Below are positions 8,601-61,616 of a DNA stretch of 64,000 bases, one piece after another. A model generated the notes under the pieces. That model saw nothing but the letters and a program-made list of their open reading frames with translations, ran no database searches and had not been told where the DNA came from. The number at the start of each line of letters is the position of its first letter. The stretch's first letter is position 1. Both the position numbers and the translations under genes were made by a program. Origin of the DNA: Candidatus Uhrbacteria bacterium (GTDB lineage Bacteria; Patescibacteriota; Patescibacteriia; 2-12-FULL-60-25); contig JAIOPK010000019.1 of NCBI GenBank assembly GCA_021413945.1, positions 1 to 64,000 of the forward strand, written 5' to 3'.

Positions 8601-11600
8601 GTGTGAGAATCCATGGCCGGCACGCGCCGATGCGCCGTTCTCCGACAGCGATGGCTCTCGTACCATTCCGGCGACATTTGTCGGCGGTCCGTTCTACAAC
8701 TTCTCGACACTCTACTGCCGCGACAAAAACCAGCCCGGCCTCGGCGGCGACCTTCCCGCGATGTCCGTCGTCGGTGTTGCCCCATCGCCGATCGACGTCG
8801 GTCTCGGCATCCTCCGCCAATACCTCTTCACCTTTAACGAGCCGTCGCTTCGCGGCGATGGTATCGGTATTCGCATTGCGACGAACCCGCTCCACCAGTC
8901 TCCATCGGCCTGGTATGCGTCCAAGGGTTTCAGCGGTTCGCCTAAAGCAATCACCGTCGACGGCTATGAAGCGGTACAGGATGGAAATACTGTCTACATC
9001 GGCGCCGTAAACACGACGGGTTTGGCTTCCGGCGACATTTATCCGAATATCTACGTCATTTCCCGCAATCCAGACGCACAGGCGGAAACCATCGATATTT
9101 TTGATCAGATGGTTGCGAACTTTGTCCTCAATGTGAACCTGCAGGAAGACTCGCAAAACGCCTGTGTCTACGCGTTGGACGAAGCCCCGCATTTCTCCGG
9201 CGATTCATTCCGCGGCGCCGACGGCCGTTCCGTCGCCTGTACCGCCGATTGGGAATGTTTGAATCAGAATCGCAATCTCCGCTGTGCGAGCTTCAAGACC
9301 AAGATGCAGCGCGACATCAAGCGCATCGCCGACTTCCAGCGCATGACAAGCGCGCTCGAAGCGACAAAAACTCGCACGAGCAAATACCCCCAGCTTCAAA
9401 CCGGCTCCTTCTTGCAGACCATGAGCAACAGCCGTTGGCCGAGCTGGCAGGGTGCCTTCACCGCCGAAGTCGGTACGACGCCTCCCGCGGATCCGGTAAA
9501 CCGTTTCCTGACTTGCGGTGTTTGTGCAACGGGCGGCTCTCCGTGTATGGATAACGCCGACTGTGCGGCGGGAGTGAGCTGTAACACCAGACCGGGAGCC
9601 GTCTATGACGGAATCGAAACGTCCACCTGCTGGAATCCGACGTCCCGTAACTTTGTCTGCCCGCGTTATAACGACGCGAACCCGGCTTCCGTTTCCCGCA
9701 TTTACCAGTATCGCGCGTTGAACGCCGGTGCCCGCTACGAACTTTCGACAGAACTGGAAGGCCCATCGGCGGACCGCTATCGCCCGCGTCTGCTTGAAGA
9801 AATCAAGCGCTGCACCAATATTGATTCCGTCTGTAACATCGCCTCCGACTGTACGGTTCCGGGCCCCGGCGGCGCCCCATTATCGACCGGAAGCTGTGTT
9901 GCTACCGGCGGCAAGTGGATTTACGCGGGAATTTGCGATGGAAGCACGTATGGAAGCGATACCGTCTGCGGTAACGGCGTTATCGGTCCGGGTGAAACGT
10001 GTGAAGTAGGGGATACGCGTCCGGCTGTTTGTACGACTCCCGGCTCGCTCGTTCCAAATAACGGCACGACCCTACAAGTTTGCGATCTCTGCACGAGCTT
10101 CGTGAACTCTCCTTCAAGCATCTGCGTCGCCAACGCTTTGTGTGGTAACGGACGTATCGATCGCAACCAGTGCTTGGGCGGTTCCGGCTTCCGTTACGGC
10201 CAGGCGTGCAATACCCCGGGCTCCCTCGAGGAATGCCGCGACCCCCGAGATACGGGTGCTCCGACCGGCATCATCTGTACGGCTCTCGCTACAACGGAAA
10301 CCTGCGACGATGGCGCCCTGAACGGAACCTATGGCCGATGCAACCGCTCCTGTACCGGATTCGACGCCTTCTGTGGCGACGGACGTCTCTCGCCTGGAGA
10401 AACGTGCGACCAAGGCGCGGCAAACGGAAGCTACTGTGCACCCGGTACAGCCTGCTCGCCGGCCACAACCTGCAGCATCGATTGCCGCGGCCCAGCTCCA
10501 TACTGCGGCGATGCCGACATCTCTGCTCCTAACGAAACATGTGATGGAAATTCGCAGACCTCCAACAAGGCTTTGTGTATCAACGGACCGAACCTGCACG
10601 AGCCATGCGACTCGGATGCGGATTGCGGCGTGCTTCCGGGAGGTAGCGCGGCAACCTGCGGCGGTTCTGGCGGAGCGGCATTGCTTGCGTGTACCGGAAC
10701 ACTCGGCCTCTGTTCCAACGGCGGTCCCTGTACTGATGATGGCGATTGCGACCGACCCGGACCTCCACGAGATGTCGGAACGTGTGTCCAATATCCGACC
10801 CAGCGTTCCCGTTCCTGTAAGAGCGGCGCGATCGTCGACGCTTGCCACTGGAATGACTGGACCGCTTGTCAGCCGATCGGCTCCTGCGGCGATGGACGCA
10901 TCGATCCGGCGGAAGAATGCGATGACGGCAACCGCAACAGCAACGACATATGTACCAACTTGTGTAAGCGCAACATTTGCGGAGATGCCGCTATCAATGT
11001 CGGCGTGGAAGAATGCGACAACGGAGCCCGCAACGGCACGCTTTCCTGTGATGCCGACTATGGTTCGACGTGTGTCTCTTGTTCCGCGACTTGCCGACAG
11101 GTAGCGAGCTCCGGAGGATTTTGCGGAAACGCGATCAAAGAAGGGCCGGAGCAGTGTGATCGTTCGGATTACGGGACGTCGACGCCGACCTGTCGTGAAC
11201 TGGGATACGACTATGCGCGCGATGTTAGCTGTGCGCACTATGGATTCATGAGAAATACGCGTACAAACGCCATCGAATGTATCGGTGAGACGGCATTCAG
11301 TTGTCGCTTCTCGTTGTCAACGGAGTCCGTGTGGACGGAAGCAAGCCTCACGCCTCGAGCATTCCCCGTGTTGGAAGCGAACCAAATCTGCATGCTCAAT
11401 CAAGAGCTGTGCATGCTGGGCACTCTCTGCGCCACCCCGCATCCTCCGAGACAGGATTCAATCACGTGCAATTCAGGTTGTGGATTTACCGGTTGCGCAC
11501 GTTGCGGTGAAGAAGAAGGTGACGGTGTTATTAGCGCGCAAGTCCTTGACGCTATTTACTCAAACCAGCCGGTACCAAATGCGCGTGTAACCTTGTATAG

Positions 11601-12522
11601 CCGCGGTATTCGCGTCGGTGAAACCTATACAGCCTCGGACGGTACGTTCACTTTCTCAAGCATCAACCGCGTTTCCGCGTGTTCGCAATACCGTATCGTC
11701 GTCGACTTCTATCAGGATAATCCATGTACCGGAAATACGGGCCGTCCAAGCCCGGGCTGTAATGGTCAAGTGTGGCCGGCAGGACTCGCAGCCCCCAATG
11801 AAGCTAGTAACGGAGGCTACTGGCCCTTCGAATCTCAAACATTCGGCTACAACAACTTCCTGTCACGCGGTATCAACGACACAGGCGGAAATATTTTCCT
11901 TGCGCCGCGCGTTGCGCGTGATGAGACGCTTGTGATTGCAACGTGGAACGGAACTCTGCCGCCCGGAGCCTACACGGACGCCCATATCACACTTGCGCCG
12001 GCTGTACGTCCTCCGTCTGATGTCTATTGGGGTGGTCCAGGTAATCAAGACATCGACGGCACAGCCCCTCACGCCTACCTCGCCTGTTTCCACCCAGATG
12101 GATCGGTCGGTTGCGGATCATTCGAGATCGCTCCGGAAACGATTAAATACAAGCGCGGAACATGGGGGCTCACAGGCCGTTATGGCTACTACCTCGTCGA
12201 CTATTCAACGGGCGGTTCGCCGGTACAGTCCTATCGGTACTTTGACTACGTCTCGACAACCGTCCGTATTGTGACCGAGGATCGACTCTTTACCGTCAAA
12301 CCTGCGACGACCGTACCGACGGATAGCGGTTGCTCGGACGATACGGATGATCGCAAAGGAAAATATTGGCACGTCTTTTCCCAAGACGCGGGAAGCGGAG
12401 CTATCACGATTCCGGGAGCGGGTAAAGGCCTGATGCTGTGTGATGGATCCGATCAATACGGTGGCGGATTCGGGCTTCCGGCTGTACCGCTACCGGGTCC
12501 GATTCAAGGCGCAGGATTCTAA
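2683..12522 (+). CDS. Giant (3279 aa) surface protein: VirB2/TrbC-like anchor, IPT/TIG, Ig-like and Cys-rich repeats
   Basis: A signal peptide ends near residue 31 (VVHA/QVD). Two transmembrane helices follow (about 55-122) with the loop MTSGGNAEQVDRAKAMIRNA, then a Gly-rich hinge (about 125-152). The ectodomain holds at least three or four IPT/TIG-like units (about 429-515, 530-608, 615-710, 723-805), Ig-like units with N-x-R/M motifs, and two clusters of CGNG-x-I-x-x-GE-x-CD repeats (DUF4215/Myxococcus Cys-rich type; about 1360-1610 and 2425-2830). A carboxypeptidase-regulatory-like beta domain (about 2944-3010) lies near the C-terminus. A membrane-like WWKKMWVSF segment lies inside it near residue 1754. 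The many Cys residues imply disulfides outside the cell. It is coupled to the upstream gene by ATGA, and the next gene starts 3 nt after its stop. Adhesion or attachment is inferred, not shown. Confidence 0.8.
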   Translation: MIKLRSLALAILTALSLLTGSVAFIPTVVHAQVDAGLTEVGGVIGLSATDPRVIASRIINVSLSLLTIIMLGLIIYAGFLWMTSGGNAEQVDRAKAMIRNAIIGVVLILSSWAIATFVINALIGATGGGGGGGAGGGGPGGGGALPGGGGSTAFQVVSISPGGSVPIRNVQVRFILSRDIDGATANANIRVLRVSDSSVVAGSLAVAGQVATFTPSAPCPAPNDTRFCFDGDTEFRAEIASGLRSTTGQSIACGGFSPACQMGFTTGNLVDTADPTANITSPFNGQGVPADDFVTVSLNASDDAGVSFVELFAGPDLIGIGAAPGSSTLRDISADVSWDTAGLVSGPMSLRATAHDIDSNTGDSPIVSVMVRPQHCFNGVQDAAEGETGIDCDALATPESCGACPGGACTTGSMCASGVCTGGICVEQPIITRISPPDGRPGTMVTISGSNFGTSTGQIIFADGQVATAPAACAASGIRTWWPNQVVVAVPDAAIDGPIQIINAAGLNDISNDDRGPRIDPFDVNDVARPGLCAADPESGIVGSSLALIGTGLGGASDRVFFNDREISSFTSWADDRIVLNAPVITPASYAVTARSGGVFSNSVSYRITTPVVTAGPEIISLSPENGPIGEYVTLQGRNFGSEVGKVNFRRGASDIAIADTDFPAACSLAFWSNTAITVKVPRTIRAGLGDEPISPGTYQVEVERRDTARSNTLPFAVNTSPQRPGICAIQPIAGPVDTEVAIIGERFGGDGTASFAGSGATRVPAIVGAGAWSSSRVTTRVPTAAVTGQVNLTVAGQTSNAVNFAVRNCNEDASICSVAGSVCCRSGACSDASGVCPASSPTAMFAWRVSSGILPVNPRVIEECSADPASKPPSPSPWSDRNGGNNVCVNSDVYIRFNTPLNIPTVATNLLVRQCTAGGSTPCTTTTPVSAAAGYPQISVNDGQGFIRFRPAALWNGTSTYQVVLRTGIQSSTNVPMLENADDCGAGNAYCFTFTTRAAGALCEVGSITVVPAPHTMDDVEIDQAYNAVPRAADDACVVLRGDVYNWSWYAGESPTSLDGRASVTNNIVAGRVSENQIVTSHAETGSDPVRINASTIDAGRSVNGRGDLFISLVPPKIEAYGPNCDEACLNGAIWFRFNVPMEPRSVDTSNYLLQRCTNENCRTFDLRVDLTTAPVRLTTIPGAPSGAPLRYVVVEPTRPGAAPGSPPETLLERGRFYKFVVYSGEGSFMSRSGLPLTGLNDPQGFAWTFRVKDGENARCTVEAVSMAPGEKIESSVGERQTFTANPESGPTACNANGEPLIADTTFNWTIEQTPTVSKFVNASGNGLVDTNPLIGQGCNNRCTPRGSAGLDGRVASCGNSVIETTNPNYCRNAAGTAACATSGAGAVGCRTIHGDSCRLMTPGSRGSEECDGGAPSATCGSSCLWLPAVGAATCGNGTLDRGEQCDSAVCVRGSCAPGTVPGCTLDCQLLGSSEGGSVCGNGSIGDGEACDDGNTSNGDGCSSQCLHEGSNAVLALCGNRVIDPGETCDNVGGVFPAGCNTTTCLKNGTTACTSGANCCGNGIIDAAEDCDGGQGCSNRCLVEGSSAEYDTPSFCGDGVTGPGEISACESAAGDSLPDATQLAEIVGDTIPDASGLMMSTVRATYDEKIGNASYGLQCGFTLESDCPAGTGLDDHGCCAARPSITSQYPPSLPAGVGICRNALITAEFNTRMADATVTANFVVAERVSGAAATCPAGTTTTVMQIDTSGMPWWKKMWVSFLSIFDAQPALADVYCVGNVRGRLNIDSSSTSTGSVATFTLERALKADTEYRITFKGDGDLLDNPGVREGIRSARGVVSDGSIVWSFRTGARICTVSSVDIRDLDTEHPNLYVAPVETHAYVAAPIALQDGRSVPLSTVAEYDWTWDLWNTSADTILGVTASAEPNRASGVSRNKNGAAYVSAGIRITRDEVTVPSTTDRVIRGSELATVLLCENPWPARADAPFSDSDGSRTIPATFVGGPFYNFSTLYCRDKNQPGLGGDLPAMSVVGVAPSPIDVGLGILRQYLFTFNEPSLRGDGIGIRIATNPLHQSPSAWYASKGFSGSPKAITVDGYEAVQDGNTVYIGAVNTTGLASGDIYPNIYVISRNPDAQAETIDIFDQMVANFVLNVNLQEDSQNACVYALDEAPHFSGDSFRGADGRSVACTADWECLNQNRNLRCASFKTKMQRDIKRIADFQRMTSALEATKTRTSKYPQLQTGSFLQTMSNSRWPSWQGAFTAEVGTTPPADPVNRFLTCGVCATGGSPCMDNADCAAGVSCNTRPGAVYDGIETSTCWNPTSRNFVCPRYNDANPASVSRIYQYRALNAGARYELSTELEGPSADRYRPRLLEEIKRCTNIDSVCNIASDCTVPGPGGAPLSTGSCVATGGKWIYAGICDGSTYGSDTVCGNGVIGPGETCEVGDTRPAVCTTPGSLVPNNGTTLQVCDLCTSFVNSPSSICVANALCGNGRIDRNQCLGGSGFRYGQACNTPGSLEECRDPRDTGAPTGIICTALATTETCDDGALNGTYGRCNRSCTGFDAFCGDGRLSPGETCDQGAANGSYCAPGTACSPATTCSIDCRGPAPYCGDADISAPNETCDGNSQTSNKALCINGPNLHEPCDSDADCGVLPGGSAATCGGSGGAALLACTGTLGLCSNGGPCTDDGDCDRPGPPRDVGTCVQYPTQRSRSCKSGAIVDACHWNDWTACQPIGSCGDGRIDPAEECDDGNRNSNDICTNLCKRNICGDAAINVGVEECDNGARNGTLSCDADYGSTCVSCSATCRQVASSGGFCGNAIKEGPEQCDRSDYGTSTPTCRELGYDYARDVSCAHYGFMRNTRTNAIECIGETAFSCRFSLSTESVWTEASLTPRAFPVLEANQICMLNQELCMLGTLCATPHPPRQDSITCNSGCGFTGCARCGEEEGDGVISAQVLDAIYSNQPVPNARVTLYSRGIRVGETYTASDGTFTFSSINRVSACSQYRIVVDFYQDNPCTGNTGRPSPGCNGQVWPAGLAAPNEASNGGYWPFESQTFGYNNFLSRGINDTGGNIFLAPRVARDETLVIATWNGTLPPGAYTDAHITLAPAVRPPSDVYWGGPGNQDIDGTAPHAYLACFHPDGSVGCGSFEIAPETIKYKRGTWGLTGRYGYYLVDYSTGGSPVQSYRYFDYVSTTVRIVTEDRLFTVKPATTVPTDSGCSDDTDDRKGKYWHVFSQDAGSGAITIPGAGKGLMLCDGSDQYGGGFGLPAVPLPGPIQGAGF

Positions 12523-12525
12523 TCT

Positions 12526-13254
12526 ATGGAACGAAAACAACTCATCATTATCGGTTCGGTGGTCGGTAGCATTGCCGTCGTCGCTCTTGTCGCGCTCATC
12601 ATCATGTTGCGCATTCGAGCTACGGCCGACCTCCAGCCGATCACCACCGTAAACACGCCAGCAGGTCCCGCGGTTCAGGTTCCTGTAGGGAATACGCAGA
12701 CGACGCCGGAACGCGAGCGTTTAGCCGCGCAGGAACTCGATATGCTCGCGGCAAGACCAAAAGATACGGATGGAGATGGCTTGAGCGATGATGAGGAAGT
12801 CCAACTTGGGACGAATATCAATGACGGCGATACGGATGATGATGGAAGTAGCGATTGGGAAGAAGTGAAGACGTTGAAGACGGATCCCACGAAGCCTGAT
12901 ACGGGAGTTCTCGAAAAAAGAATTGCGGATCAAAAACAGCGCCTCTCGACCGTCTCGTCGACAAGGCCCGAGCCGACGGTAACCACTCCCGTTGCACCCA
13001 CAACACCTACGGCAAGTCCCGACGCCGACGCCGACGGCCTCACCGCCGAACAAGAAGCCAATCTCGGAACCGACCCCAACAACGCCGACACAGACGGCGA
13101 CGGTCTCACAGATCGCCAAGAAGTAGAGACCTACAAAACCGATCCCCTTAAGGCTGATTCCGACAATGACACATTCAAAGACGGCGCCGAGGTGCAAGCA
13201 GGGTATAATCCACTAGGTCCAGGCAAATGCGCCCGCACAACCTGTATTCCGTAA
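12526..13254 (+). CDS. Membrane-anchored protein with thrombospondin type 3-like calcium repeats
   Basis: This 242-residue protein has one N-terminal transmembrane helix (about residues 6-28). A Thr/Pro-rich linker then joins two blocks of DxDGDGLxDxxE repeats (about 79-125 and 170-225). Such Asp-rich loops bind calcium in TSP3 and dockerin-like families. It ends with GYNPLGPGKCARTTC, a motif echoed by the next gene. It lies 3 nt after the giant gene and 8 nt before the next, so it is part of the same operon. It is likely an extracellular calcium-stabilised stalk. Its exact role is unknown. Confidence 0.75.
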   Translation: MERKQLIIIGSVVGSIAVVALVALIIMLRIRATADLQPITTVNTPAGPAVQVPVGNTQTTPERERLAAQELDMLAARPKDTDGDGLSDDEEVQLGTNINDGDTDDDGSSDWEEVKTLKTDPTKPDTGVLEKRIADQKQRLSTVSSTRPEPTVTTPVAPTTPTASPDADADGLTAEQEANLGTDPNNADTDGDGLTDRQEVETYKTDPLKADSDNDTFKDGAEVQAGYNPLGPGKCARTTCIP

Positions 13255-13262
13255 ACTGAATT

Positions 13263-14081
13263 ATGAACCCTCCACCAAATCTCCCCTTTGAACCGCTCAC
13301 ACCTCCGCCCACGCAGGGGAGTGTTCCCGTTCCGCCACCGACGCCTCCGGCACCGCTTCCTGCTCCGGCTCCGCTCAAGCCCTCTGCACCGTCCGCCAAA
13401 GAGCCGGAGGATATCTTCTCGGACATGGAAAAACCCGGAGGCGGTGGAATGGGTTCGCGTCCGTTCGCGACTGCCATGCCGGAAATCTCGCATCAGGCTT
13501 CCTATGGAAAAATCATCGCGATCGTCGTGATCGTGTTCCTTGTGGTCGCCTCATCCGCTTCAGCCTTCTGGTGGTTTGTCATCCGCACACCGGCTCCTGT
13601 AGCACCGGCCATCGTCGCACCGACGCCGAGACCAACACCGACCCCTCCGCCAACTCCAACACCGATACCAGTGGATACGGAGACGCCGGAACCAGCAACG
13701 GCAACCACTACGACGACCACGCCGGCTTCGCTTCCGACTCCGGTAACAACGCCGCCCGATGGCGTAACCATCCCGTTGCCAACGCCCGTGACCAATGAAC
13801 CATTCCCGGTCGATGAAGCGCCAACGACAACTCCGCCCATCGAGGCTGACACGGACAAGGACGGATTATCGGATCGACGAGAAGCCGAGCTCGGCCTCGA
13901 TCCGAACAATGCCGACTCCGACGGAGACGGCGTCAGTGATGGCGATGAAGTGATGAAGTATGGTACGAATCCTTTGAACCGCGATACAGATCGAGACACC
14001 TACGAGGACGGAATGGAAATTAAGGGCGGGTTCAATCCGCGCGGTGAAGGAAAGTGTTCCAAGCCGGACTGTACACTCTAA
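13263..14081 (+). CDS. Proline-rich membrane protein with TSP3-like calcium repeat
   Basis: The 272 residues start with a Pro-rich cytoplasmic-type region (1-75). A single transmembrane helix follows (about 82-103), then a Pro/Thr-rich linker and a C-terminal block of DTDKDGLSDRREAELG-type repeats (about 198-260). The C-terminus GGFNPRGEGKCSKPDC matches the ending of the preceding paralogue. The start ATG lies 8 nt after the previous stop. The long Pro-rich N-terminus may bind a cytoplasmic partner; that is inference. No enzymatic motif is seen. Confidence 0.7.
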   Translation: MNPPPNLPFEPLTPPPTQGSVPVPPPTPPAPLPAPAPLKPSAPSAKEPEDIFSDMEKPGGGGMGSRPFATAMPEISHQASYGKIIAIVVIVFLVVASSASAFWWFVIRTPAPVAPAIVAPTPRPTPTPPPTPTPIPVDTETPEPATATTTTTTPASLPTPVTTPPDGVTIPLPTPVTNEPFPVDEAPTTTPPIEADTDKDGLSDRREAELGLDPNNADSDGDGVSDGDEVMKYGTNPLNRDTDRDTYEDGMEIKGGFNPRGEGKCSKPDCTL

Positions 14082-50816: not shown

Positions 50817-51539
50817 ATGCCTTTGGCGCCAGTGCAGCGTGTCAAAGAGTGGTGGCGTTCCTTGCCGACGGAGACGCGTTTTTCGACGTCCATCCTGGGT
50901 GTTTGCGGGATCGTCATCATCATTCTCTCAACCGTGTATATGCGATCCAATGTCCTTTCACCATTCCGCGTTTCCAACAATGTCCTCAAGCCGGCACAGG
51001 AGCTGTATGCCCGCCAATCGGAACGCGCGAATGAATTGGAAGCTTCCAAAACAAAAGATACGGACCGTGACGGTTTGAGCGACTACAGCGAGCTGTACGT
51101 CTACCGTACGTCGCCGTATCTTGGCGATACCGACTCCGACGGAATCCCCGACGCGATCGAGATCGCTCAAGCGAGCGATCCAAATTGTCCTGCCGGAACA
51201 ACCTGTATCCAAATTGCTAACCAACAGCCAACCGGTTCCGCGAGCTCGACCTTTAGCGACCTGATCGACGTGACACAGTTCAACGCCGATCCCAACATGC
51301 CTTCGGAAATCCGCAATGCCCAACAATTTATTCAGGAAGCCAAAGACCCGTCGCTCGTGACCCCTCAGCAGATTCGGGAAACACTCACCAAGTTTAGTCT
51401 CGTCTCCCCGGAGCGCCTCACAGCGCTGACGGACGATGAAGTGCGAGCCGTCTACGCGGCGACCTACGCCCGCATCCTCAAGATTCGCGAAGCCTCCGCG
51501 AACGCGGGTGTTGGCGCGGCCAGTACCACCACCCCTTAA
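50817..51539 (+). CDS. Membrane-anchored protein with TSP3-like calcium repeats
   Basis: I use the ATG at 50817 (240 aa), which sits exactly at the predicted transcript start; the reading frame is open further upstream, but that part is antisense to hsp20. A transmembrane helix (about 21-41) is followed by KDTDRDGLSDYSELYVYRTS and DTDSDGIPDAIEIAQ, two calcium-binding Asp-rich units. A helical C-terminal domain (about 155-230) follows. It precedes the 3355-residue giant by 9 nt, echoing the anchor-plus-giant pairing at 2683-14081. Confidence 0.75.
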   Translation: MPLAPVQRVKEWWRSLPTETRFSTSILGVCGIVIIILSTVYMRSNVLSPFRVSNNVLKPAQELYARQSERANELEASKTKDTDRDGLSDYSELYVYRTSPYLGDTDSDGIPDAIEIAQASDPNCPAGTTCIQIANQQPTGSASSTFSDLIDVTQFNADPNMPSEIRNAQQFIQEAKDPSLVTPQQIRETLTKFSLVSPERLTALTDDEVRAVYAATYARILKIREASANAGVGAASTTTP

Positions 51540-51548
51540 TATTACGTT

Positions 51549-54500
51549 ATGAACCATCGACCTTTGCTCCAACGCTTCCTCATCGCGATCCTCGGCTTGT
51601 TTGCCGCGATCGTCGTGGTTGGAAGTCCGTTGGTGACGCATCCGGTACGCGCCATCCCGGTTGAGGTCGTCACAAACGTGCCGGAACAAACCAACGATGT
51701 TCTCGATGAGATCTTTCAGGCGCTCTCCCAAGCGGCCGTCACAGCCTTCTTCAACGCCGCCCGCACCTTTGCCGGCCAAATCGCTTATGATGCGGCCAAC
51801 TATTTGGCAAGCGGAGGCACGGGACAGGGCGCTCTCGCGTTTGAAGACGGTTTTGGGAAGTATTTGGAGAATGTCGGTCAGGATGCCGCCGGTGAGTTCA
51901 TCGGTTCTTTGTCGGAAGATTTTTTTCAGGAAGCCGGCTTTGATCTGTGCCGACCTCCGAATCCGGGTCAATTACTTAATTTGCAGATTTCCATCACCGG
52001 ATCCATTCCGGGTTTGAATGAGCTCTGTCCAGAGGGCCAAGACTGTAACAATCGCCCTCGCCCGCGCTGTGATTTTCAAGAAATCATTTCCAACTACGAG
52101 AATTTGTATACGACGTTGTCCAATTCGGAAATTACGGATTTCGTGAGCGCGAGTTTCAATACCAATGCGAGCGAGCTCGGTATCAGCGCGACGATTCTCG
52201 GCCGTGCCAACGTCAACATCGCCGATGAAATCAAGAAGGCCACGGCCGAGCGCGAGGAAGGCGCCGGATTCAAGCCGGTGGAGGGTAAAGTAGACGAGAA
52301 AATCAAAACACCGGCAAAACTCGTCGGAGATCAGACGACGGAAGAAATCGTCGCCAAGCCTTCCAAGAGCGAGTCCGATGCATTTTTGGCAACGATGACC
52401 ACGGCATTCGAGCAGGGCTTTTCCCAGCTTGCCTCGTACACCGCGTCGATGTTTATCAATACGCTCGCCAATAAATTGCTGGCACGCGTTTTTGAAAAGG
52501 GAATCATCGGCGCCTTCAACTTTACGGCGACACAAGTCGGCATTAGTCCGGATGCGATCAGCGTCCGCAGTAAAACCGACGCGCGCAAAGCCAACATCGA
52601 TTTGAAGAACGTTACCTTGCTGCGTGTCAGCGATATCGAGATCAGCGGTGAATTGATCGCGTGTCCGGATAACCGCGGTTTGTGGAACTGTACGGCGGAT
52701 GAAACGCTCGCCCAGCTGATCCAGGGAAAAACGGCGGAAGGCAATCCGACGATCCGTTTGGCGGTGGACAAGAATTGGTTGAAAGGGGATTGGGAATTGA
52801 TTCCAACGAGCAACGTCCAGAGAAATCAGGACCGCAACTGTTATAAGGAGGCGTATTGCGCCGGTAACCTGCAGAAGCTCCGAGCCATGCGTATTTTGCC
52901 CGTCGGTTTTGAATTTGCCGCCAACTCGATCGAGAACATCAACCGCTGTGCCGGAGCCGGAGGCTGTGTGAAATTGCGTGAAGTCGTCGAGGGCTTCTCG
53001 AACTGTAATGACGCAGGCAAACGCGATGCCGAACACCCATGGTGCAACCTGATCGATCCGAACTGGGTCATCACATCGTTCCAACAGCAGTGTCAGCTGA
53101 CCGGTTATGGCGATACGCTGATTTCCAATCGATTAGGCCAGCGCCGTGAAGAGTGCCGCGATATCCAGACCTGTCTGCGCCGTAACGATATCGGTGAATG
53201 TGTCGGCGGTTATGGTTCCTGTGTCGCCGATAAAACCGTGTATCGATTTAACGCGAACGAGTGTCAGGAGGACTATGCAAGCTGTCGCAGTTTCTCCAAC
53301 CGCGCCGGACAAACCGTTTCCTATCTCCGCAACACCATCGATTATTCCGTCTGCCGCGCGGAAAATGTCGGCTGTTTGAGCTATGCCACCACGCGCGACG
53401 CGTCCGGAACTTGGGAGGGGACATCGCCAAAAGTCTATTTCGATAAAACGCTCGAGACCTGCGCCGCAACCGATGAGGGATGTACGCGCCTCTTGAGTGC
53501 CGAGGTCGGAGTGTCGGCATTGAATGTCATTCAGAACCCGTCTTTTGAAACAACTAACGGCACTCCGCTCGCGCTCGATCATTGGCGCAAGCTTGATGCC
53601 ACTCCTTATGTAACGCCTTCGTTGCTCGTTAACGCGGCTTCGGATGGTGCGGTTGCAACGGACGCCGGAAACAGTTTGCGTCAGGATGTGGACATGGTTC
53701 CCCTCCGTTTGTACACGATTTCCGCCTGGGTTCGTGCAAATGGCGCATCACCAAGCGCAACGGTAACGGTTCGCCAGATGCGAAGCGCGCCCGGCGCGGC
53801 AGTTGTCGAATCGCCAGATCCGGAACTCAGAAACGCCTACAGAAGCTCCGGATGTACATTGACGGGAGAACAAATGCAGGTCTCCACCGTCGGCCGTTCC
53901 ATCGACAACAACTGGAGCCGTCTCGAGTGTTCCTTCTTGTCCGTTTCATCGACGCGCTACGCCGTTATAGAAATCGACGGTTCGAATGCGCTCGTCGATG
54001 CCGTCCAGCTGGAAGAAGGACAATTTGCCACCAACTTCCTAACCGGAAGCAATCGCGCGTTGCCGACCTTGCACATGAAGGTCGCTCCGGACGATCTGAA
54101 CTGCACCGGAGCCGCCTCCGATCCCGTCGCTTGTAACGCCTTTGCCAAAGTCTGCCGACAAGTCGACGCCGGTTGTCAGGGATACACGGATAAACTCGGC
54201 GGTCCGGAAGTTCCGGCTATTCTCACATCTAATGATGTTTGTCCGCAGGAATGTGTCGGCTATGCCGAGTTCCGCAAACAGCCGGCCGCCTTTGACCTCG
54301 TCAACGATCCGGACACGCGCTTTAGCGATCCTTCCGATGCGACCTCGAGCTTCTTTATTCCAAAGACGGCGCTCCAGTGTACGCAGGAACAAGTCGGTTG
54401 TGAGGCCTTTACGAATGTTGCCGCCGCCGCTGAAGGCGGAGAGCAGGCTACCTATTGGAGCTATTTGCGCGCCTGCCGTTTGCCGAGCGCAACGTTGAGC

Positions 54501-57500
54501 AAGACTTTCTTTACCTGGGAAGGTTCCGAGTCCGCGGGCTTCCAGCTGCGTACCTTCTCGCTTATCTCGGAATCAGGTATTCCGAATCCGGGTCCGGAAG
54601 TCCTGACCAAGCGCGGTCCCGATGGAGCGTTCAAGGAACCGACATCGTGTAATGAGGGGCTATGGAGAACCGGTATCGATCCGGATTGTCGCCAATTCTA
54701 CGACCGCGACGGAAATGTCTACTACCGTTTCTATTCCCAGACCATTCTCTCCACATCCGACTGTGTCAATTTGCGCATCTCGCGATCCACGAGCCGCGAC
54801 GATTGTGCCAAAACCGGCGGCGACTTCAGCACGGTCACCGGTGAATGTTTGTACAACGCCAATCTTGGTGAGAGCCGTTCCTGTCCCGCAACGGCCGCGA
54901 GCTGTCGCGCCTACTCGGGCGCGGCCGCCGGAAACGTCCAAGTCCTCGTCAATGAGAATTTCCGCGGAGGACTCGGCGGCTTCAGCGCCGGCACGCCGTC
55001 TCCGGAATCCCTGCTCGTCGGCGACCAGAGCTTGCGCTTGAATGAGGGAACGCCCGTTACCAACGTCAGCTTTGCCAGCGAGTCCGCCGGACTCTATCGT
55101 GTCAGTTTCTGGGCCAAAGCCGCCGGCCGCAACGATTTGAACCTCACCTTTGGCATCCGCGATACCGCCGCACCGGCCGCGACACCGACCCAGGTCGGAA
55201 ACATCCGCTTATCAACAGACTGGCAGCGCTACACCGTCGGCTTGTTCTCCGGCGCCTCGCTCGCTTCCTCATCGACACTCATCACCACGATGACGGGCTC
55301 CGGCATCCGCGCCGTCTTCATCGATGAAGTCCGCATCGAGCGCATCCGCGACACCGCGTTTGTCATCCAAAACTCCTGGAACACGCCGATCTCCTGTGAC
55401 CGTTCCTTCTCCGGCGCGATTGAACCGCAAGCTATGCTGGGCTGCCGCGCCTACAACGACCGCTTCAACCGCGAGGTGAACGCCTTCCGCTTTACGCGTC
55501 TCTGCCGTGCAGAGGGGATTGGCTGCCGCGCCTTTGTCGACACACGCAACTCCGACAGCCCATACGCCGAAAGCTTCAATCAGCGCGATGCGGCACCAGT
55601 TCCGGTCTTCAATAGCTCGGCCCTCGTCTACGGTTCATCGACCACCACGCGTCTCGGTGATCGCATGAAGTATCTCGTCTACGACCCATCCAAAGTGTGT
55701 CAGCGCGAGAACGCTTCCTGCCGAGCTTTTGGAAAACCGCTCTATTCCGTCGACCGCTCAACCATCGAGTCCTATACGAGCGTCTATTATAAGGATGACA
55801 TCACCAAGTACGGCGATGCACTCTGTAAGCCGTCCGAGGAATTCTGCGAAGAATATAAGTACAACGGCGCTAACGACTATTTCCGCGATCCTCAGCGCAA
55901 GGTGTGTGAATTCAAGCAGGGCGTTCGATTATCGTTCCGCGATTTCCCGAGCGCTCCCGTAGGTTCGGTGCTCGCCGGCCTCGCGGAAGCCGAGTACGAC
56001 GGTTGGTTTAGACAAGGTTCAAGTCCGTCGATGCCGTGTTATCCGGATGCATTGGAAGGCGGCCGTAACTTCCCGCTGCCAAAGCGCGGTGACGAGATTT
56101 GGGCCGGTTGGACGGGTTTGTGTCCGGGAACGGCGGCCGAGTGTACGGAATTCCGCGACATCAATGATACAAGCGACGTGCTCCATCGCACCGGCAAGCC
56201 TTACTTCTTTGTGAATGACGATCGTCTTGATAAGACGAGCTGTCAGGGCAACGTCGATGTCGGCCAAGGCTGTGTGCTCATGCGCGACATGAGCGATCCG
56301 GTGCTCAAATACTCCGTCGCCGCTTCCTACGCCAAATACGCGTCAAACGATTTCCGTCCGACGCCTCCAATCAATTGTTTCCTCACTCCGACGCATCCAT
56401 CCTGTCTCGCCGCCGGCGCCAGCACCTCAACCGACGCCAACTTGCTCCTCAAGATCAAGATCGACCGCGACTGCGCCCAGTGGCTCGGCTGTAAGAGCTC
56501 GGAGTCCGTCTTTGATGCCGCCACGAGCCAATACAAGGAAATCTGTACCAACGTCGCTCTCTGCGATAAATCCACCGACCGCCCGGGAGAAATCTTCTGC
56601 GCCAACTACGTCGACCGTGCCGCCACCTCCACGGAAGCCGTGATGCAGCGCGGAAAATTCTTTGACATCAACGCGTATACGGAACGTCCGGTCGGACTAG
56701 GGGAGAAAGATTACTCGGGCTACGCGCTACCAAATACGTTCCAAATTCCGGAACTCGTTACGGCACGTGTCGGTTCCGAGGGTGCCAACAATGTTGAGAA
56801 CAATAAGTATCGCTTTGCACTGGACTATCGATTGGCGGCGGCTGTGCAGATGCCTACCGAGCCTCGCGTCGGAGGCCCTGGTCTCCAATTTAAGCTGAAT
56901 CCTGGCCCGAACTTTGCGCGTCCACTCGCAATCACACCGACCGGGGCGCCGATTCAGTTGGCAAACCCGGCGGTAAAGCTGTGTGAGCATGTTGGAACAG
57001 GGATCATCGGCTACTACCTCGCAACAGAAGTCGGCTCGCTCGGCTTCCCGGTAAAACCCATCGTGAATTGCTATCTCCCGGTTAAGTCCGGAGGAGAAAA
57101 CTATAACTTCCAGAATGTCTCGACACGTTTCTCGCTCGATGATCCTCGCACGGATCCGACGCTCACAAATGCCTTCCCTCCGGCCGAGTGCCGTGTAAAC
57201 CCGGAAGCCGATTCACCGTTCGGCGCAAGCTATGTAACGGAATGGGACCTCACTACCAATCCGCCGAAGCCCGTCACTAAAGTCGGCGGTTTCACGAGCG
57301 CCAATACCTGTGAATTTGGAGAGGACTGCGTCTGTAACTACAAGCGCGCCAACTATGGTTCGGTGGCTTTCAGCCGATTCTTTAGCCCGCTGTCGCAGAG
57401 CGTTCCTCCGGGAATTTGTCAGGGCGGTCCGCGTGACGGACAAGCCTGTTTGCCGTCGACCCTCTTCCAGCTGCCTACCCAGGCCTCACGCACCGGAGCA

Positions 57501-60500
57501 GGCACCGGTGCTACGGCCGAGCTCGTTCAAGGCTTGGAAGGTTCCAATGCTGCTCAAACGTGTGGTCCCGTGGAAGGCGGCGGGCGCTGTGTCGCCTTCA
57601 ACAAGCTTGAAATTATCAAGGGCGTATTTGGCCAATGTCTGGAACGTGATGAGACTCGCATCATCGGCCAAGACCAGGCGAACAAGCCTTGTCTGACATG
57701 GAATCCGACGCCGATTCTCTTTGGAGACAAAGACTCCTTCCACTATCAGCCGACATCGGGTTATCTCCCCCCGCAGAACTCGGGCCAATACTATTGCGTC
57801 TCGCCGATAAAAAAGCCCTCCAAAGCCAGCCTGACATGGAATTCGATATCCCAGTACGATTCTCCGCATGGTGAAGCGGAGGGACTCGGTGCGGGCGATA
57901 GCGAGGAGCCGGCGGCTTCCATGTATTACGCCCACGACGATGATTGGGACCATACGATTTTTGGAACAAATCGTAACAGGCTAAGGTTCTATGCGGGCTG
58001 GATGACAAGGATTGACTTTGATGACGATTGGGTTTCTTCGGATAATAACGGCCTTCTTGGCGAGGACCAGAACTACTTCGCCTCCATCTTCGGTGTCGCT
58101 CCCGCTTCGTATTACACGGGAACAACGGATTGCGAATACGCGGACGATGACCAGGACGATTCGAGAGATGAGGATGCGTTGGCACTTCGCCTCGTCGATG
58201 CCGGTTCCGGTTATGCGGAGTACTTCTTGCGCACGAATGATACGAATTTGGCGACATCGCTACAGATTGCCGGCATTCCTCCGCAAGATGCGGCTTCCGG
58301 ATGGACGCGGACATCGGAGTCGGCCAGCCGTACCGAGTTCTTTGAGTCGACGTTAAGCGATAGCACAATCTCGTACTTCAAAATCGATCCGATCAACAAC
58401 GGGAGCTATGGGCGTATCGCCTGCGGTTACCAAGCTGGCTGGGTCGATAACTTGGGCAGTGTGGACTATGACAATGCCGATTCCAATCGTCCCAAGGACG
58501 CGGAGTGGCGTACCAAGTTCTACGAAAATTATAATCCGTATCTCACGCGCGGACAGGAGGGCGTGTATTCCAATACCGGAGGCCGGCCATTCCAAGTCGA
58601 TTGTGTCGGTGCCGCCGGTTCTTGTTACCTCAAATACTGGGAGCTGGATTATCGTTCGGCAAATCAACCAAAGAAGTTCGTCGGTCTTCAGCGCATCGGT
58701 CAGGATGGTTCTGTCACGGATATCATTGTTCGCGGATTGCACGACATCCGGAAAAATCCGATCCAGTCGACCTGCGAGAATAGCAAGCCGTACTTCGCCG
58801 TTCGCGCCGTGTTTGAAGCAAGAGCATCAAATACAACCGTTCCCGCACCGGAGTTGACCGCCGATAACGTGAATGGTCCTTGGCGCTTTGTCGGATTCTG
58901 GGTATCCGCTTGCGGCGGCGACACGGGTGGCGATCAGCGCTATATCTACATGAGTATCGATGTGGGTACTGCGAGCGTCTGTAAGGAGTTGGCGGAAGTC
59001 CGTAGCAAGGATTCCAGCCAAGATGCCGCATTCACGGACCGCGTTTGGCGCCGTAGCGATTTCCGAGAGCCCGGTACTGGTCTGCAGTATTCGGATAGCG
59101 GATCTCCGTTTTCAAGCGCAATTAATACCGGTCCTGCGGGAAGAGATCCGCTGTTCCAGAATGGAGCGGAGATTACCGGCTTCTCGCCGCTCAATCCTCC
59201 GATTTTCCTCGCGCCTCCTTCACAGACGTACTATCGTCCGGCAACCGTTCCGAAGGATAAGTGGGCATATCTTTCCAACTTGTTTGCGCGCATTTACCGT
59301 GTCTACCGCTTCCAGTTCTTGCCGGTAGGCAAAGACAATACGGCTTGTACTGTCGGTCCATTCCGCGGCACGCGCTGCACAAACGTATTGCGTTGTTCAA
59401 ATGATATCGGTCTTGCATGCCCTACGGCGGGCCTGACGACCGGATGCGCTTCCGGCGGAACCTGTATTCAGACATCTCCGGCTTGTTCCTATGATGGAAG
59501 CTGTCGTGCGGCTCTCGACCAGAGCGAGTTGAATTCGATGAAGATTTGCAGTCAAGGAATCAGCCGTCTGCTTTCTTGTAGCGAATCGGATGATGTCTGT
59601 AAGGCGCCTACGTTTGTAAAAAATGATGGCTCCCTCGTTTCGCTTACCAATCCTTGCAGTGAGGCTACTGGTTGGAGAGTTGTTGATGCGACGGCCAGAA
59701 CGTATCAACGAACGAGCGGTGACACAACGATCCTTTCGCTTGAGCAAGCGGCCGCGGTCAACGCGTTTGCTTGTGGCGCGGGTTCTGTAAACACGGCCGC
59801 CGGCAGCTGTAAGTTCCCGGAGGCAGCAAGTATCGATTGTCCGGTGGAAATTAATGGGGGACTCATAGGGACTTGCAATGCGACCGACTTCAAGTGCGAT
59901 TACCCGGCTTCAATGGATGCGATTTTCAGCGCACGAGGAATTACGACTGTGGCGGAAAAACGCAACACATGTAACCCTGCCACAGCTCGCAAGGATTGTT
60001 CGTTCACGGATGAAAACGTTGACGGCTTCGGTGCATCCAACGCCATTTCTTGTATCACGCCTCCCTACAGCGCTTTGGGTCGCTGTTCCGGCGGTGAACG
60101 AGACACGCAGATCTGTTGGTTAAGCAGCAAGCCGCGCGAAGGAACCATTGGTTCATGCATTAGTACGGCGGATGCCGCGACGTTAAAGAATCCCGCCGCG
60201 AATTCCTGTATTCCTGTTTCCGGTCCCGCACCCGACTACTCGCCGATTGCCACCTGTCTAAAACCGGGTGCGACCGCAGGCCTTCCGAATAGTTCGAATG
60301 ATCCGGATACGGACGATAACATCTGCACGCATTCCGGCGGATACCAGCCGCGCATCGACATGTGTCCCGATCCGGCTGACGAGTTCTGCGGATTGATCGC
60401 TTACAGAATCGGCGGAACAGGCTCCACGGCATCCCTGAATCCAAGCGGCCCGCCGCTCCCGACCGACCACACGCTCGGCATGTATACGCCAACCCGTCTT

Positions 60501-61616
60501 GGCTACACCGCCGCAGGCATTACCGCCGCCACCTTCCGCTACATGGCGTATTACAACCCGTTGCCTCCGCGCTTGGCCGCTCCGGACACGCGCAACTGCC
60601 CCATCCCGGGCCAGTGTCCGATCTCTCGTGTCGATACCTTCGCCTTCAACGGTCAAACCGACGGCGTCATCAATGTCGGCGGTGGTTCCCACAAGTCGAC
60701 GATGCGCTTCTACGCATGGGCCGCGCATAACCAGATGCCTCTCCGCCAAGTCGTGATCGATTGGGGCGACGGTTCCAACCAGCGCGTCGATGACACGCGT
60801 ATGAAGAATCGCAAACCGTTCTGTGGAGTCCAGCGCGAATGCTCCAACACGCCGGGTCTTACGTGTCAGACTAACGCCGATTGTCCGCCGGCTGCGGGAA
60901 CCTGTGTCGCTATCGGAACCTGTTCCCAAAACCCGAACCTCGCCTGCTCACAGGATTCCAACTGCACCGTCGCCGGTGTGAAAGACACATGTAATATCCG
61001 CACGATGTTCGGCAATGCAACCGAAGCCTGTCAGTCCGACTACTTTGACTTTGCTCACCTGTACTCCTGTGGAGCACAACAGAAGGCGGAACCGATCGAT
61101 GGCGGCTTGCAACGCTGTACAAACCAACCGCGTTGCTCTCGTGACACAAACCGCACTTGTCCGACACCGGGCTTGAATGATGGTTGTGCTCCGGGTGACA
61201 TCTGTCTTGAAGGCTTGGCCCCTGTCGATGGTTGCTTCGACCTCGAGTTCCGCACTTGCCGCTTCAGCCCCCGCATCATGATCCAAGACAACTTTGGCTG
61301 GTGTACCGGTGAGTGCCGCAACGGTTTGACCGGAGGTCAGCCGGATGACCTCGCAGCAAACACGGTGAAGCATCCGAATGGCGGATGCTGGGCGGGTTCG
61401 ACATTGGGCAATGATCCGAATATTCGATTCAATGATCGCGCAAATCAAAGCAATGATCGTCTAAGTGTTGTGCTCAGTATAAGCGAATGTAAAGAAGACG
61501 CATTGAACGCTGTGCCCACTGCCATCCCAGTTCCTGCCACGGAACGTAATAACAGAAGTTGGATCGTATATCCTGGTTCCCTGCAGCTTCGTGAAAGCGG
61601 TGAACTAGCTCCGTAA
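51549..61616 (+). CDS. Giant (3355 aa) secreted Cys-rich protein with CBM-like and PKD-like domains
   Basis: A signal peptide ends near residue 36. Helical segments (about 55-130 and 280-325) are followed by Cys-rich sequence. From residue 572 to 1525 there are ten copies of a C-x6-C-x2-[F/Y/L] motif (572, 602, 638, 869, 944, 1112, 1319, 1384, 1426, 1525). Two carbohydrate-binding-like beta sandwiches (about 658-820, NPSFETTNGTP; about 1130-1270, NENFRGGLGGFS) lie among them. Near the C-terminus a PKD-like domain (VVIDWGDGS near 3068) is interrupted by a Cys-rich insert before FDFAHLYSC near 3166. It lacks the VirB2/TrbC-like anchor of the other giant. A TAATAT box lies 6 nt before its ATG. 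Adhesion or glycan binding is inference. Confidence 0.8.
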   Translation: MNHRPLLQRFLIAILGLFAAIVVVGSPLVTHPVRAIPVEVVTNVPEQTNDVLDEIFQALSQAAVTAFFNAARTFAGQIAYDAANYLASGGTGQGALAFEDGFGKYLENVGQDAAGEFIGSLSEDFFQEAGFDLCRPPNPGQLLNLQISITGSIPGLNELCPEGQDCNNRPRPRCDFQEIISNYENLYTTLSNSEITDFVSASFNTNASELGISATILGRANVNIADEIKKATAEREEGAGFKPVEGKVDEKIKTPAKLVGDQTTEEIVAKPSKSESDAFLATMTTAFEQGFSQLASYTASMFINTLANKLLARVFEKGIIGAFNFTATQVGISPDAISVRSKTDARKANIDLKNVTLLRVSDIEISGELIACPDNRGLWNCTADETLAQLIQGKTAEGNPTIRLAVDKNWLKGDWELIPTSNVQRNQDRNCYKEAYCAGNLQKLRAMRILPVGFEFAANSIENINRCAGAGGCVKLREVVEGFSNCNDAGKRDAEHPWCNLIDPNWVITSFQQQCQLTGYGDTLISNRLGQRREECRDIQTCLRRNDIGECVGGYGSCVADKTVYRFNANECQEDYASCRSFSNRAGQTVSYLRNTIDYSVCRAENVGCLSYATTRDASGTWEGTSPKVYFDKTLETCAATDEGCTRLLSAEVGVSALNVIQNPSFETTNGTPLALDHWRKLDATPYVTPSLLVNAASDGAVATDAGNSLRQDVDMVPLRLYTISAWVRANGASPSATVTVRQMRSAPGAAVVESPDPELRNAYRSSGCTLTGEQMQVSTVGRSIDNNWSRLECSFLSVSSTRYAVIEIDGSNALVDAVQLEEGQFATNFLTGSNRALPTLHMKVAPDDLNCTGAASDPVACNAFAKVCRQVDAGCQGYTDKLGGPEVPAILTSNDVCPQECVGYAEFRKQPAAFDLVNDPDTRFSDPSDATSSFFIPKTALQCTQEQVGCEAFTNVAAAAEGGEQATYWSYLRACRLPSATLSKTFFTWEGSESAGFQLRTFSLISESGIPNPGPEVLTKRGPDGAFKEPTSCNEGLWRTGIDPDCRQFYDRDGNVYYRFYSQTILSTSDCVNLRISRSTSRDDCAKTGGDFSTVTGECLYNANLGESRSCPATAASCRAYSGAAAGNVQVLVNENFRGGLGGFSAGTPSPESLLVGDQSLRLNEGTPVTNVSFASESAGLYRVSFWAKAAGRNDLNLTFGIRDTAAPAATPTQVGNIRLSTDWQRYTVGLFSGASLASSSTLITTMTGSGIRAVFIDEVRIERIRDTAFVIQNSWNTPISCDRSFSGAIEPQAMLGCRAYNDRFNREVNAFRFTRLCRAEGIGCRAFVDTRNSDSPYAESFNQRDAAPVPVFNSSALVYGSSTTTRLGDRMKYLVYDPSKVCQRENASCRAFGKPLYSVDRSTIESYTSVYYKDDITKYGDALCKPSEEFCEEYKYNGANDYFRDPQRKVCEFKQGVRLSFRDFPSAPVGSVLAGLAEAEYDGWFRQGSSPSMPCYPDALEGGRNFPLPKRGDEIWAGWTGLCPGTAAECTEFRDINDTSDVLHRTGKPYFFVNDDRLDKTSCQGNVDVGQGCVLMRDMSDPVLKYSVAASYAKYASNDFRPTPPINCFLTPTHPSCLAAGASTSTDANLLLKIKIDRDCAQWLGCKSSESVFDAATSQYKEICTNVALCDKSTDRPGEIFCANYVDRAATSTEAVMQRGKFFDINAYTERPVGLGEKDYSGYALPNTFQIPELVTARVGSEGANNVENNKYRFALDYRLAAAVQMPTEPRVGGPGLQFKLNPGPNFARPLAITPTGAPIQLANPAVKLCEHVGTGIIGYYLATEVGSLGFPVKPIVNCYLPVKSGGENYNFQNVSTRFSLDDPRTDPTLTNAFPPAECRVNPEADSPFGASYVTEWDLTTNPPKPVTKVGGFTSANTCEFGEDCVCNYKRANYGSVAFSRFFSPLSQSVPPGICQGGPRDGQACLPSTLFQLPTQASRTGAGTGATAELVQGLEGSNAAQTCGPVEGGGRCVAFNKLEIIKGVFGQCLERDETRIIGQDQANKPCLTWNPTPILFGDKDSFHYQPTSGYLPPQNSGQYYCVSPIKKPSKASLTWNSISQYDSPHGEAEGLGAGDSEEPAASMYYAHDDDWDHTIFGTNRNRLRFYAGWMTRIDFDDDWVSSDNNGLLGEDQNYFASIFGVAPASYYTGTTDCEYADDDQDDSRDEDALALRLVDAGSGYAEYFLRTNDTNLATSLQIAGIPPQDAASGWTRTSESASRTEFFESTLSDSTISYFKIDPINNGSYGRIACGYQAGWVDNLGSVDYDNADSNRPKDAEWRTKFYENYNPYLTRGQEGVYSNTGGRPFQVDCVGAAGSCYLKYWELDYRSANQPKKFVGLQRIGQDGSVTDIIVRGLHDIRKNPIQSTCENSKPYFAVRAVFEARASNTTVPAPELTADNVNGPWRFVGFWVSACGGDTGGDQRYIYMSIDVGTASVCKELAEVRSKDSSQDAAFTDRVWRRSDFREPGTGLQYSDSGSPFSSAINTGPAGRDPLFQNGAEITGFSPLNPPIFLAPPSQTYYRPATVPKDKWAYLSNLFARIYRVYRFQFLPVGKDNTACTVGPFRGTRCTNVLRCSNDIGLACPTAGLTTGCASGGTCIQTSPACSYDGSCRAALDQSELNSMKICSQGISRLLSCSESDDVCKAPTFVKNDGSLVSLTNPCSEATGWRVVDATARTYQRTSGDTTILSLEQAAAVNAFACGAGSVNTAAGSCKFPEAASIDCPVEINGGLIGTCNATDFKCDYPASMDAIFSARGITTVAEKRNTCNPATARKDCSFTDENVDGFGASNAISCITPPYSALGRCSGGERDTQICWLSSKPREGTIGSCISTADAATLKNPAANSCIPVSGPAPDYSPIATCLKPGATAGLPNSSNDPDTDDNICTHSGGYQPRIDMCPDPADEFCGLIAYRIGGTGSTASLNPSGPPLPTDHTLGMYTPTRLGYTAAGITAATFRYMAYYNPLPPRLAAPDTRNCPIPGQCPISRVDTFAFNGQTDGVINVGGGSHKSTMRFYAWAAHNQMPLRQVVIDWGDGSNQRVDDTRMKNRKPFCGVQRECSNTPGLTCQTNADCPPAAGTCVAIGTCSQNPNLACSQDSNCTVAGVKDTCNIRTMFGNATEACQSDYFDFAHLYSCGAQQKAEPIDGGLQRCTNQPRCSRDTNRTCPTPGLNDGCAPGDICLEGLAPVDGCFDLEFRTCRFSPRIMIQDNFGWCTGECRNGLTGGQPDDLAANTVKHPNGGCWAGSTLGNDPNIRFNDRANQSNDRLSVVLSISECKEDALNAVPTAIPVPATERNNRSWIVYPGSLQLRESGELAP

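Follow-up and report, generated by a model that had tools for sequence, protein, structure and literature searches.

A ten-copy cysteine-hairpin repeat in a class-wide giant protein of Patescibacteria, a candidate surface component of a type IV secretion system

The subject of this analysis is a giant protein of 3355 amino acids encoded at positions 51549-61616 (+ strand; open reading frame list) of a 64,000-nucleotide stretch of a Candidatus Uhrbacteria genome (contig JAIOPK010000019.1, positions 1 to 64,000; hereafter, the window). The motif C-x6-C-x2-[FYL] recurs in this protein at residues 572, 602, 638, 869, 944, 1112, 1319, 1384, 1426 and 1525, and these ten copies are a true homologous repeat family that is confined, as far as seen, to the giant protein. 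On balance, it is probable that the repeat is braced by disulfides, that the giant is secreted, and that it serves as an extracellular, glycan- or host-contacting component of the type IV secretion system (T4SS) of the class to which the window genome belongs and which, judging from the names of the relatives, we take to be ABY1.

All ten positions, as listed in the original prediction, were recovered by a regular-expression scan, and the motif is absent from the rest of the protein. Between residues 501 and 1700, the ten observed matches compare with a mean of 0.32 and a maximum of 4 in 5000 shuffles of the sequence, and the plain C-x6-C pattern is found 12 times against 2.0 in the shuffled sequences. 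The copies, all on the + strand, are CQEDYASCRSF (residue 572; window 53262..53294), CRAENVGCLSY (602; 53352..53384), CAATDEGCTRL (638; 53460..53492), CRQVDAGCQGY (869; 54153..54185), CTQEQVGCEAF (944; 54378..54410), CPATAASCRAY (1112; 54882..54914), CRAEGIGCRAF (1319; 55503..55535), CQRENASCRAF (1384; 55698..55730), CKPSEEFCEEY (1426; 55824..55856) and CPGTAAECTEF (1525; 56121..56153). The array thus starts at position 53262, as previously stated, and its last motif reaches 56153 rather than 56145. The region holds 50 cysteines, largely conserved, and the series of ten is real but incomplete. Elements with a similar strand-Cys-loop-Cys-strand organization and other loop lengths are also present, namely C852-x9-C862-xx-F (54102..54143), C898-x3-C902-xx-Y (54240..54263), C1034-x12-C1047-xx-F (54648..54698), C1283-x15-C1299-xx-Y (55395..55454; a partial match of the repeat profile described below) and C1565-x9-C1575-xx-M (56241..56282), all on the + strand; given these variant loops of 3, 9, 12 and 15 residues, the series extends somewhat beyond ten.

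To assess conservation, the cores of 89 non-redundant orthologues were aligned. Both cysteines of the copies at residues 869, 944, 1112, 1319 and 1384 are present in all 89, and in each of the remaining five copies the pair is missing in at most two orthologues, with both cysteines kept in 86-89. The six-residue gap is maintained in 78-89 orthologues, depending on the copy, and where altered is mostly shortened to four; nearly all sequences carry F, Y, W, L or a similar residue at the third position after the second cysteine. The median identity of the ten-copy core is 0.39, compared to 0.29 for the preceding domain and 0.23 for residues 2091-2450, and few long regions of the giant are as well conserved. 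When 33-residue profiles of the individual copies, with the orthologues as rows, were compared using hhalign, 41 of the 45 pairs yielded E < 1e-3 and 42 aligned in register; with all cysteines masked, 35 of the 45 pairs still aligned in register, whereas control windows did so in 11 of 144 comparisons. A hidden Markov model (HMM) of the copies, of the kind proposed in the original prediction, was run against the whole genome of the window and retrieved the ten copies with E-values of 6e-8 to 8e-5. The unit was not found in other proteins of the window or in the rest of the genome, where the next best match (E 0.39, non-significant) falls in a 4,838-residue open frame at G000:C2:35790. The register of the profile alignments and the genome-wide result together establish the ten copies as a repeat family.

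An AlphaFold2 model of residues 500-1699, built from 40 orthologues, has a mean per-residue confidence (pLDDT) of 85.6 and a predicted template-modelling score (pTM) of 0.62. All ten copies are predicted to adopt the same local structure: a three-residue helix spans positions +2 to +4 after the first cysteine, the second cysteine starts or just precedes the strand that bears the aromatic residue (from about +7), and in 9 of the 10 copies a bridge residue immediately precedes the first cysteine. The domain that contains copies 7-10 (residues 1281-1605; window 55389..56363, + strand), modelled alone from 86 sequences, reached a pLDDT of 84.8; as the pTM is only 0.58, its local elements are more trustworthy than the overall arrangement. 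The co-occurrence of cysteines in orthologues points in the same direction as the models. Close pairs elsewhere in the protein are absent together, with no discordant case, at 431/437 (8 orthologues), 467/473 (27), 852/862 (7; one of the variant copies) and 1086/1100 (8). Given the common predicted secondary structure and this unit-wise loss of other C-xn-C pairs, each pair in the repeat likely forms a local disulfide. The original suggestion that each copy is a small disulfide knob set between other domains accordingly stands in part: the element is local and of a size compatible with one disulfide, whereas the copies resemble beta-hairpin turns rather than isolated knobs. Several of them share a domain, with four in residues 1281-1605 and three in residues 572-650, and only two jelly rolls truly separate blocks of copies. 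A copy would thus be a beta-hairpin-like turn, with a local Cys-x6-Cys disulfide closing a short three-residue helix and with the aromatic residue, three positions past the second cysteine, seated in the outgoing strand.

The earlier remark that no named family was known to show the cysteine pattern has held up in searches of Pfam, NCBIfam, the PDB (sequence and fold) and BFVD (fold), none of which gave a match above threshold; that the DNA comes from a CPR (Candidate Phyla Radiation) organism, as the prediction presumed, is likewise borne out. The only Pfam match in the entire giant is CBM_4_9, and NCBIfam yielded none; the 86 orthologous domains matched no curated family consistently; and two sequence profiles, A3 and A4, found no match in the PDB. 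At a fold-match threshold of E <= 1e-3, the four-copy domain had no counterpart among 350,542 PDB chains (best E 5.2, probability 0.02) or in BFVD (best E 1.7). Our literature search found no description of a cysteine-rich giant protein of ABY1. The repeat appears to be a new structural module, braced by disulfides. PKD domains were sought in the genome of the window, with no match. Plasmid spread of the four-copy domain was also considered and rejected, with no tblastn match in 72,556 records.

The two jelly rolls that interrupt the array are another matter. The first (approximately residues 655-845; 53511..54083, + strand) resembles carbohydrate-binding modules, with Foldseek matches to CBM22 and CBM16, is beta-rich in the AlphaFold2 model and is one of the two stretches to which the profile matches in other classes are confined. 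The second (approximately residues 1130-1280; 54936..55388, + strand) resembles CBM_4_9 by the same lines of evidence and by the Pfam match (PF02018; E 2.7e-5, 25.0 bits), which covers residues 1182-1230 only and falls below the gathering score of 25.9. The CBM22/CBM16 matches, placed somewhere in the 1200-residue model, have TM-scores of 0.62-0.67 by target length and a probability of 1.00, and concern the jelly-roll stretches rather than the repeats. These two domains of the ten-copy region appear to share the fold of the CBM_4_9, CBM22 and CBM16 families; from sequence, they are glycan-binding-like and might bind glycans. Open frames in other classes of Patescibacteria match the jelly-roll stretches and do not share the Cys-hairpins. 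At E 2e-9 to 2e-7, the top Foldseek matches of the 1200-residue model are the ectodomains of reelin and ELAPOR1 (PDB 2e26, 5b4x, 9vqm), in which beta-sandwich domains likewise alternate with small disulfide-rich modules. However, these matches are local only, with a root-mean-square deviation of about 40 angstroms, TM-scores of 0.09-0.14 and about 10% identity, and the Cys-hairpin domain alone has no such match; homology is not claimed. Arrays of the turns interleaved with the two jelly rolls would build a rigid extracytoplasmic stalk.

The giant protein is a single-copy feature of the class. A single giant open frame was identified in 53 of 57 relatives (tblastn with residues 471-1717), complete orthologues being mostly 2,500-4,600 amino acids long, and these relatives include Ca. 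Uhrbacteria, Falkow-, Komeili-, Magasanik- and Buchananbacteria, along with two genomes that carry other names (Methylomirabilis and Paceibacter). Within the class, a profile of the core (residues 500-1699) matches 214 of 240 genomes, and 186 of 200 when completeness of at least 90% and contamination of at most 5% are required. When genomes were drawn from the whole phylum, the core was matched in all 22 same-class genomes among the matches listed, whereas in other classes the matches were restricted to the two jelly-roll stretches. The N-terminal domain (residues 40-470; 51666..52958, + strand; delineated by alignment and profile search) is likewise class-restricted: its profile matches 18 of 240 genomes of the phylum, all of the same class. 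Two unusual loci were noted. A 26,141-residue open frame containing the core in one relative (G390:C8) is an artefact of masked sequence and was discarded, given that 12,000 of its first 20,000 bases are N and two further stretches read entirely N. In another relative (G344:C2), inverted copies of the core with equal scores lie at 645709-649083 and 691463-694837; the TrbL-like gene discussed below is doubled as well, which suggests an assembly duplication.

A hydrophobic signal segment (approximately residues 1-35; 51549..51653, + strand) is the only hydrophobic segment of the window protein by hydropathy and is present in all 68 full-length orthologues with a start codon. DsbA-like (Thioredoxin_4) proteins are encoded in 20 of 20 genomes, that of the window included, DsbB is found in the latter, and VKOR in 12 of the 20. 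This combination of a signal segment with machinery for extracytoplasmic thiol oxidation argues for surface display, and the oxidation machinery also lends indirect support to the disulfides. Under the proposed scheme, the giant, typically of about 3000 residues, would be exported by its N-terminal signal and oxidised outside the membrane by DsbA-type enzymes.

Directly upstream of the giant gene, with a stop codon 9 nucleotides before its ATG, is a partner gene (50817..51539, + strand) whose product, as seen in the alignment, combines one transmembrane segment, calcium repeats of the TSP3/EF-hand type and a conserved, helical-looking C-terminal region; the Pfam match to TSP3_bac is weak, below the cut-off. 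A calcium-repeat gene is the first upstream neighbour on the same strand in 74 of the 82 loci with upstream sequence, and the giant would probably be held at the cell surface together with this co-encoded, membrane-anchored protein. The pairing of a giant with TSP3 proteins occurs twice in the window: the TSP3 gene precedes the 3355-residue giant and, at 12526-13254 and 13263-14081 (+), two TSP3 calcium-repeat proteins directly follow a second giant of 3279 residues (2683-12522, +). The latter and the adjacent 629-residue protein (797-2686, +) start with a T4SS_pilin (VirB2-like) segment, to which surface domains including Big_5 and TIG are joined. The match in the 3279-residue protein is just below the cut-off, and this second giant may, from its sequence, carry a pilin-like anchor.

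The connection with the T4SS comes from the downstream side. Outside the family of the window, the giant gene is followed by a gene for a polytopic, TrbL/VirB6-like protein of about 900 residues. The corresponding profile (A5), run on 28 genomes, found a single copy per genome (that of G055 in two pieces) and matches 210 of 240 members of the class. Among the genomes outside the window's family that carry both genes on one contig, the TrbL-like gene lies at most 20 kb downstream of the core, on the same strand, in 75 of 77, often adjacent to it. In the loci that were read through, it is followed by genes for PrgI (PF12666), an ATPase of the VirB4 type (TraG P-loop, PF19044) and a ComF-like protein, in agreement with the published ABY1 T4SS locus, which contains comF, recG and radA (PMC12102498). 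In one relative (G041:C1:110500-130000), the genes downstream of the giant encode, in order, the TrbL-like protein, two unknowns, PrgI, an unknown, VirB4, an unknown and the ComF-like protein, and the locus continues with genes that by eye resemble recG and radA. In the genome of the window itself, a locus with TrbL-like, PrgI and VirB4 genes is present at G000:C2. Other genes recur beside the giant in some families: by eye, rsmA/ksgA and one of the Sua5 type lie upstream, and YidC and NusA (Pfam) lie downstream. The giant itself is not a VirB6/TrbL protein: it lacks the polytopic membrane character of these, having the N-terminal hydrophobic segment only. Combined with the TrbL/VirB6-like protein, PrgI and VirB4, it would probably represent the extracellular, host- or glycan-contacting part of the T4SS of the class.

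Known surface proteins invite comparison. Like the PrgB-type adhesins of monoderm conjugation systems, the giant is a large, probably surface-located protein with a gene beside a VirB6/PrgI/VirB4 locus, and it is proposed as an analogue of these; however, it has no PrgB domain (Pfam) and no C-terminal LPxTG, ending in much of the window's family with RPWIVYPGSLQLR, and its sequence is entirely different. A PrgB-like adhesin reportedly was not detected in Patescibacteria (PMC12102498), and the giant is a candidate for a PrgB-like role by analogy, not a member of the PrgB family. Giant exoproteins of 4939-6025 residues with FhaB/DUF2341 domains have been proposed to function in adhesion in Patescibacterium danicum, a member of ABY1, and were reported to lack full-length homologues (PMC11809585). 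In contrast, the giant of the window has neither FhaB nor DUF2341 (Pfam) and is conserved across the class, with orthologues mostly shorter than 4000 residues. DUF4215 and other bacterial Cys-rich repeats are likewise found in surface proteins of CPR bacteria but differ in cysteine spacing, and DUF4215 has no match in the 3355-residue protein (Pfam); the second giant of the window contains a weak match to a DUF4215-type repeat.

Several observations weigh against the T4SS reading as a whole. Linkage between the giant and the T4SS locus is absent from the family of the window (on different contigs in 10 genomes, more than 700 kb apart in 2), so that for the window genome the link rests on orthology; the partnership with the T4SS, derived from gene order, is the weakest step, particularly for this genome. 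Pfam gives the polytopic protein only a weak assignment to TrbL/VirB6, its best match (E 1.4e-4) staying below the cut-off, the arrangement of genes around rsmA and YidC may be no more than an ancestral one, and fragmented assemblies limit the presence counts. Some of these points favour the view that the giant forms a structural, S-layer-like coat on the cell surface and takes no part in secretion, with hairpins that serve for stability alone and a T4SS neighbourhood retained by ancestry. A single-copy, class-wide protein with a core identity exceeding that of the preceding domain and of residues 2091-2450, unlinked from the T4SS in one family and accompanied at some loci by the housekeeping genes rsmA, YidC and NusA, is what such a coat might look like. 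The conserved linkage with the TrbL-like gene outside that family, the lack of SLH or other S-layer domains in the Pfam search and the jelly rolls, which suggest ligand binding, all argue the other way, and we consider a coat possible yet distinctly less probable than a T4SS component.

The remaining alternatives concern the cysteines. That they bond between copies or between chains, producing a cross-linked extracellular mesh instead of local loops, could be reconciled with the near-invariance of the core cysteines and with residues 976, 1453 and 1497, which have no close partner in the sequence. Moreover, precisely because the cysteines of the ten copies are nearly invariant, they yield almost no co-loss signal of their own, another point that detracts from local pairing. 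A mesh is nonetheless unlikely considering the fixed gap of six residues, occasionally shortened to four, the same helix-turn in the ten copies and, at other sites of the giant, the unit-wise disappearance of adjacent pairs. Cysteine pairs at fixed spacing can also bind metal, and zinc or iron-sulfur sites, or redox switches, might be envisaged. Such sites seem very improbable in an exported protein of an organism that encodes DsbA-like and DsbB proteins, the more so as column frequencies reveal no conserved second cysteine pair or histidine to complement the C-x6-C unit. Finally, the motif is short and single copies score low (6-19 bits) with the unit HMM, as might be expected of a compositional accident in a Cys-rich protein. 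This explanation retains hardly any credibility and is refuted by the near-total conservation in 89 orthologues; the excess over shuffled sequences, the register homology with cysteines masked and the common predicted structure of all ten copies also speak against it.

The finding bears on how Patescibacteria contact and exploit their hosts. T4SS are widespread in the phylum, and the system is cited in PMC12102498 as essential for the epibiotic growth of Ca. S. epibionticum. A surface adhesin partner of this system in Patescibacteria has so far gone unrecognised, and the giant described here is a concrete candidate: a protein of about 3000 residues, in single copy, class-wide, beside the T4SS locus and containing a module without a match in structure databases. 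It may have been overlooked because its repeats match no Pfam or NCBIfam model and because most orthologues are below the cut-off of the only published survey of long ABY1 proteins that we found, which took only proteins above 4000 residues (PMC11809585). It is a serious possibility, although one we hold more tentatively than the overall reading, that a hitherto undescribed module makes up the stalk of a giant exoprotein that defines the class and would then be an unrecognised surface component of the ABY1 T4SS and a route of host contact.

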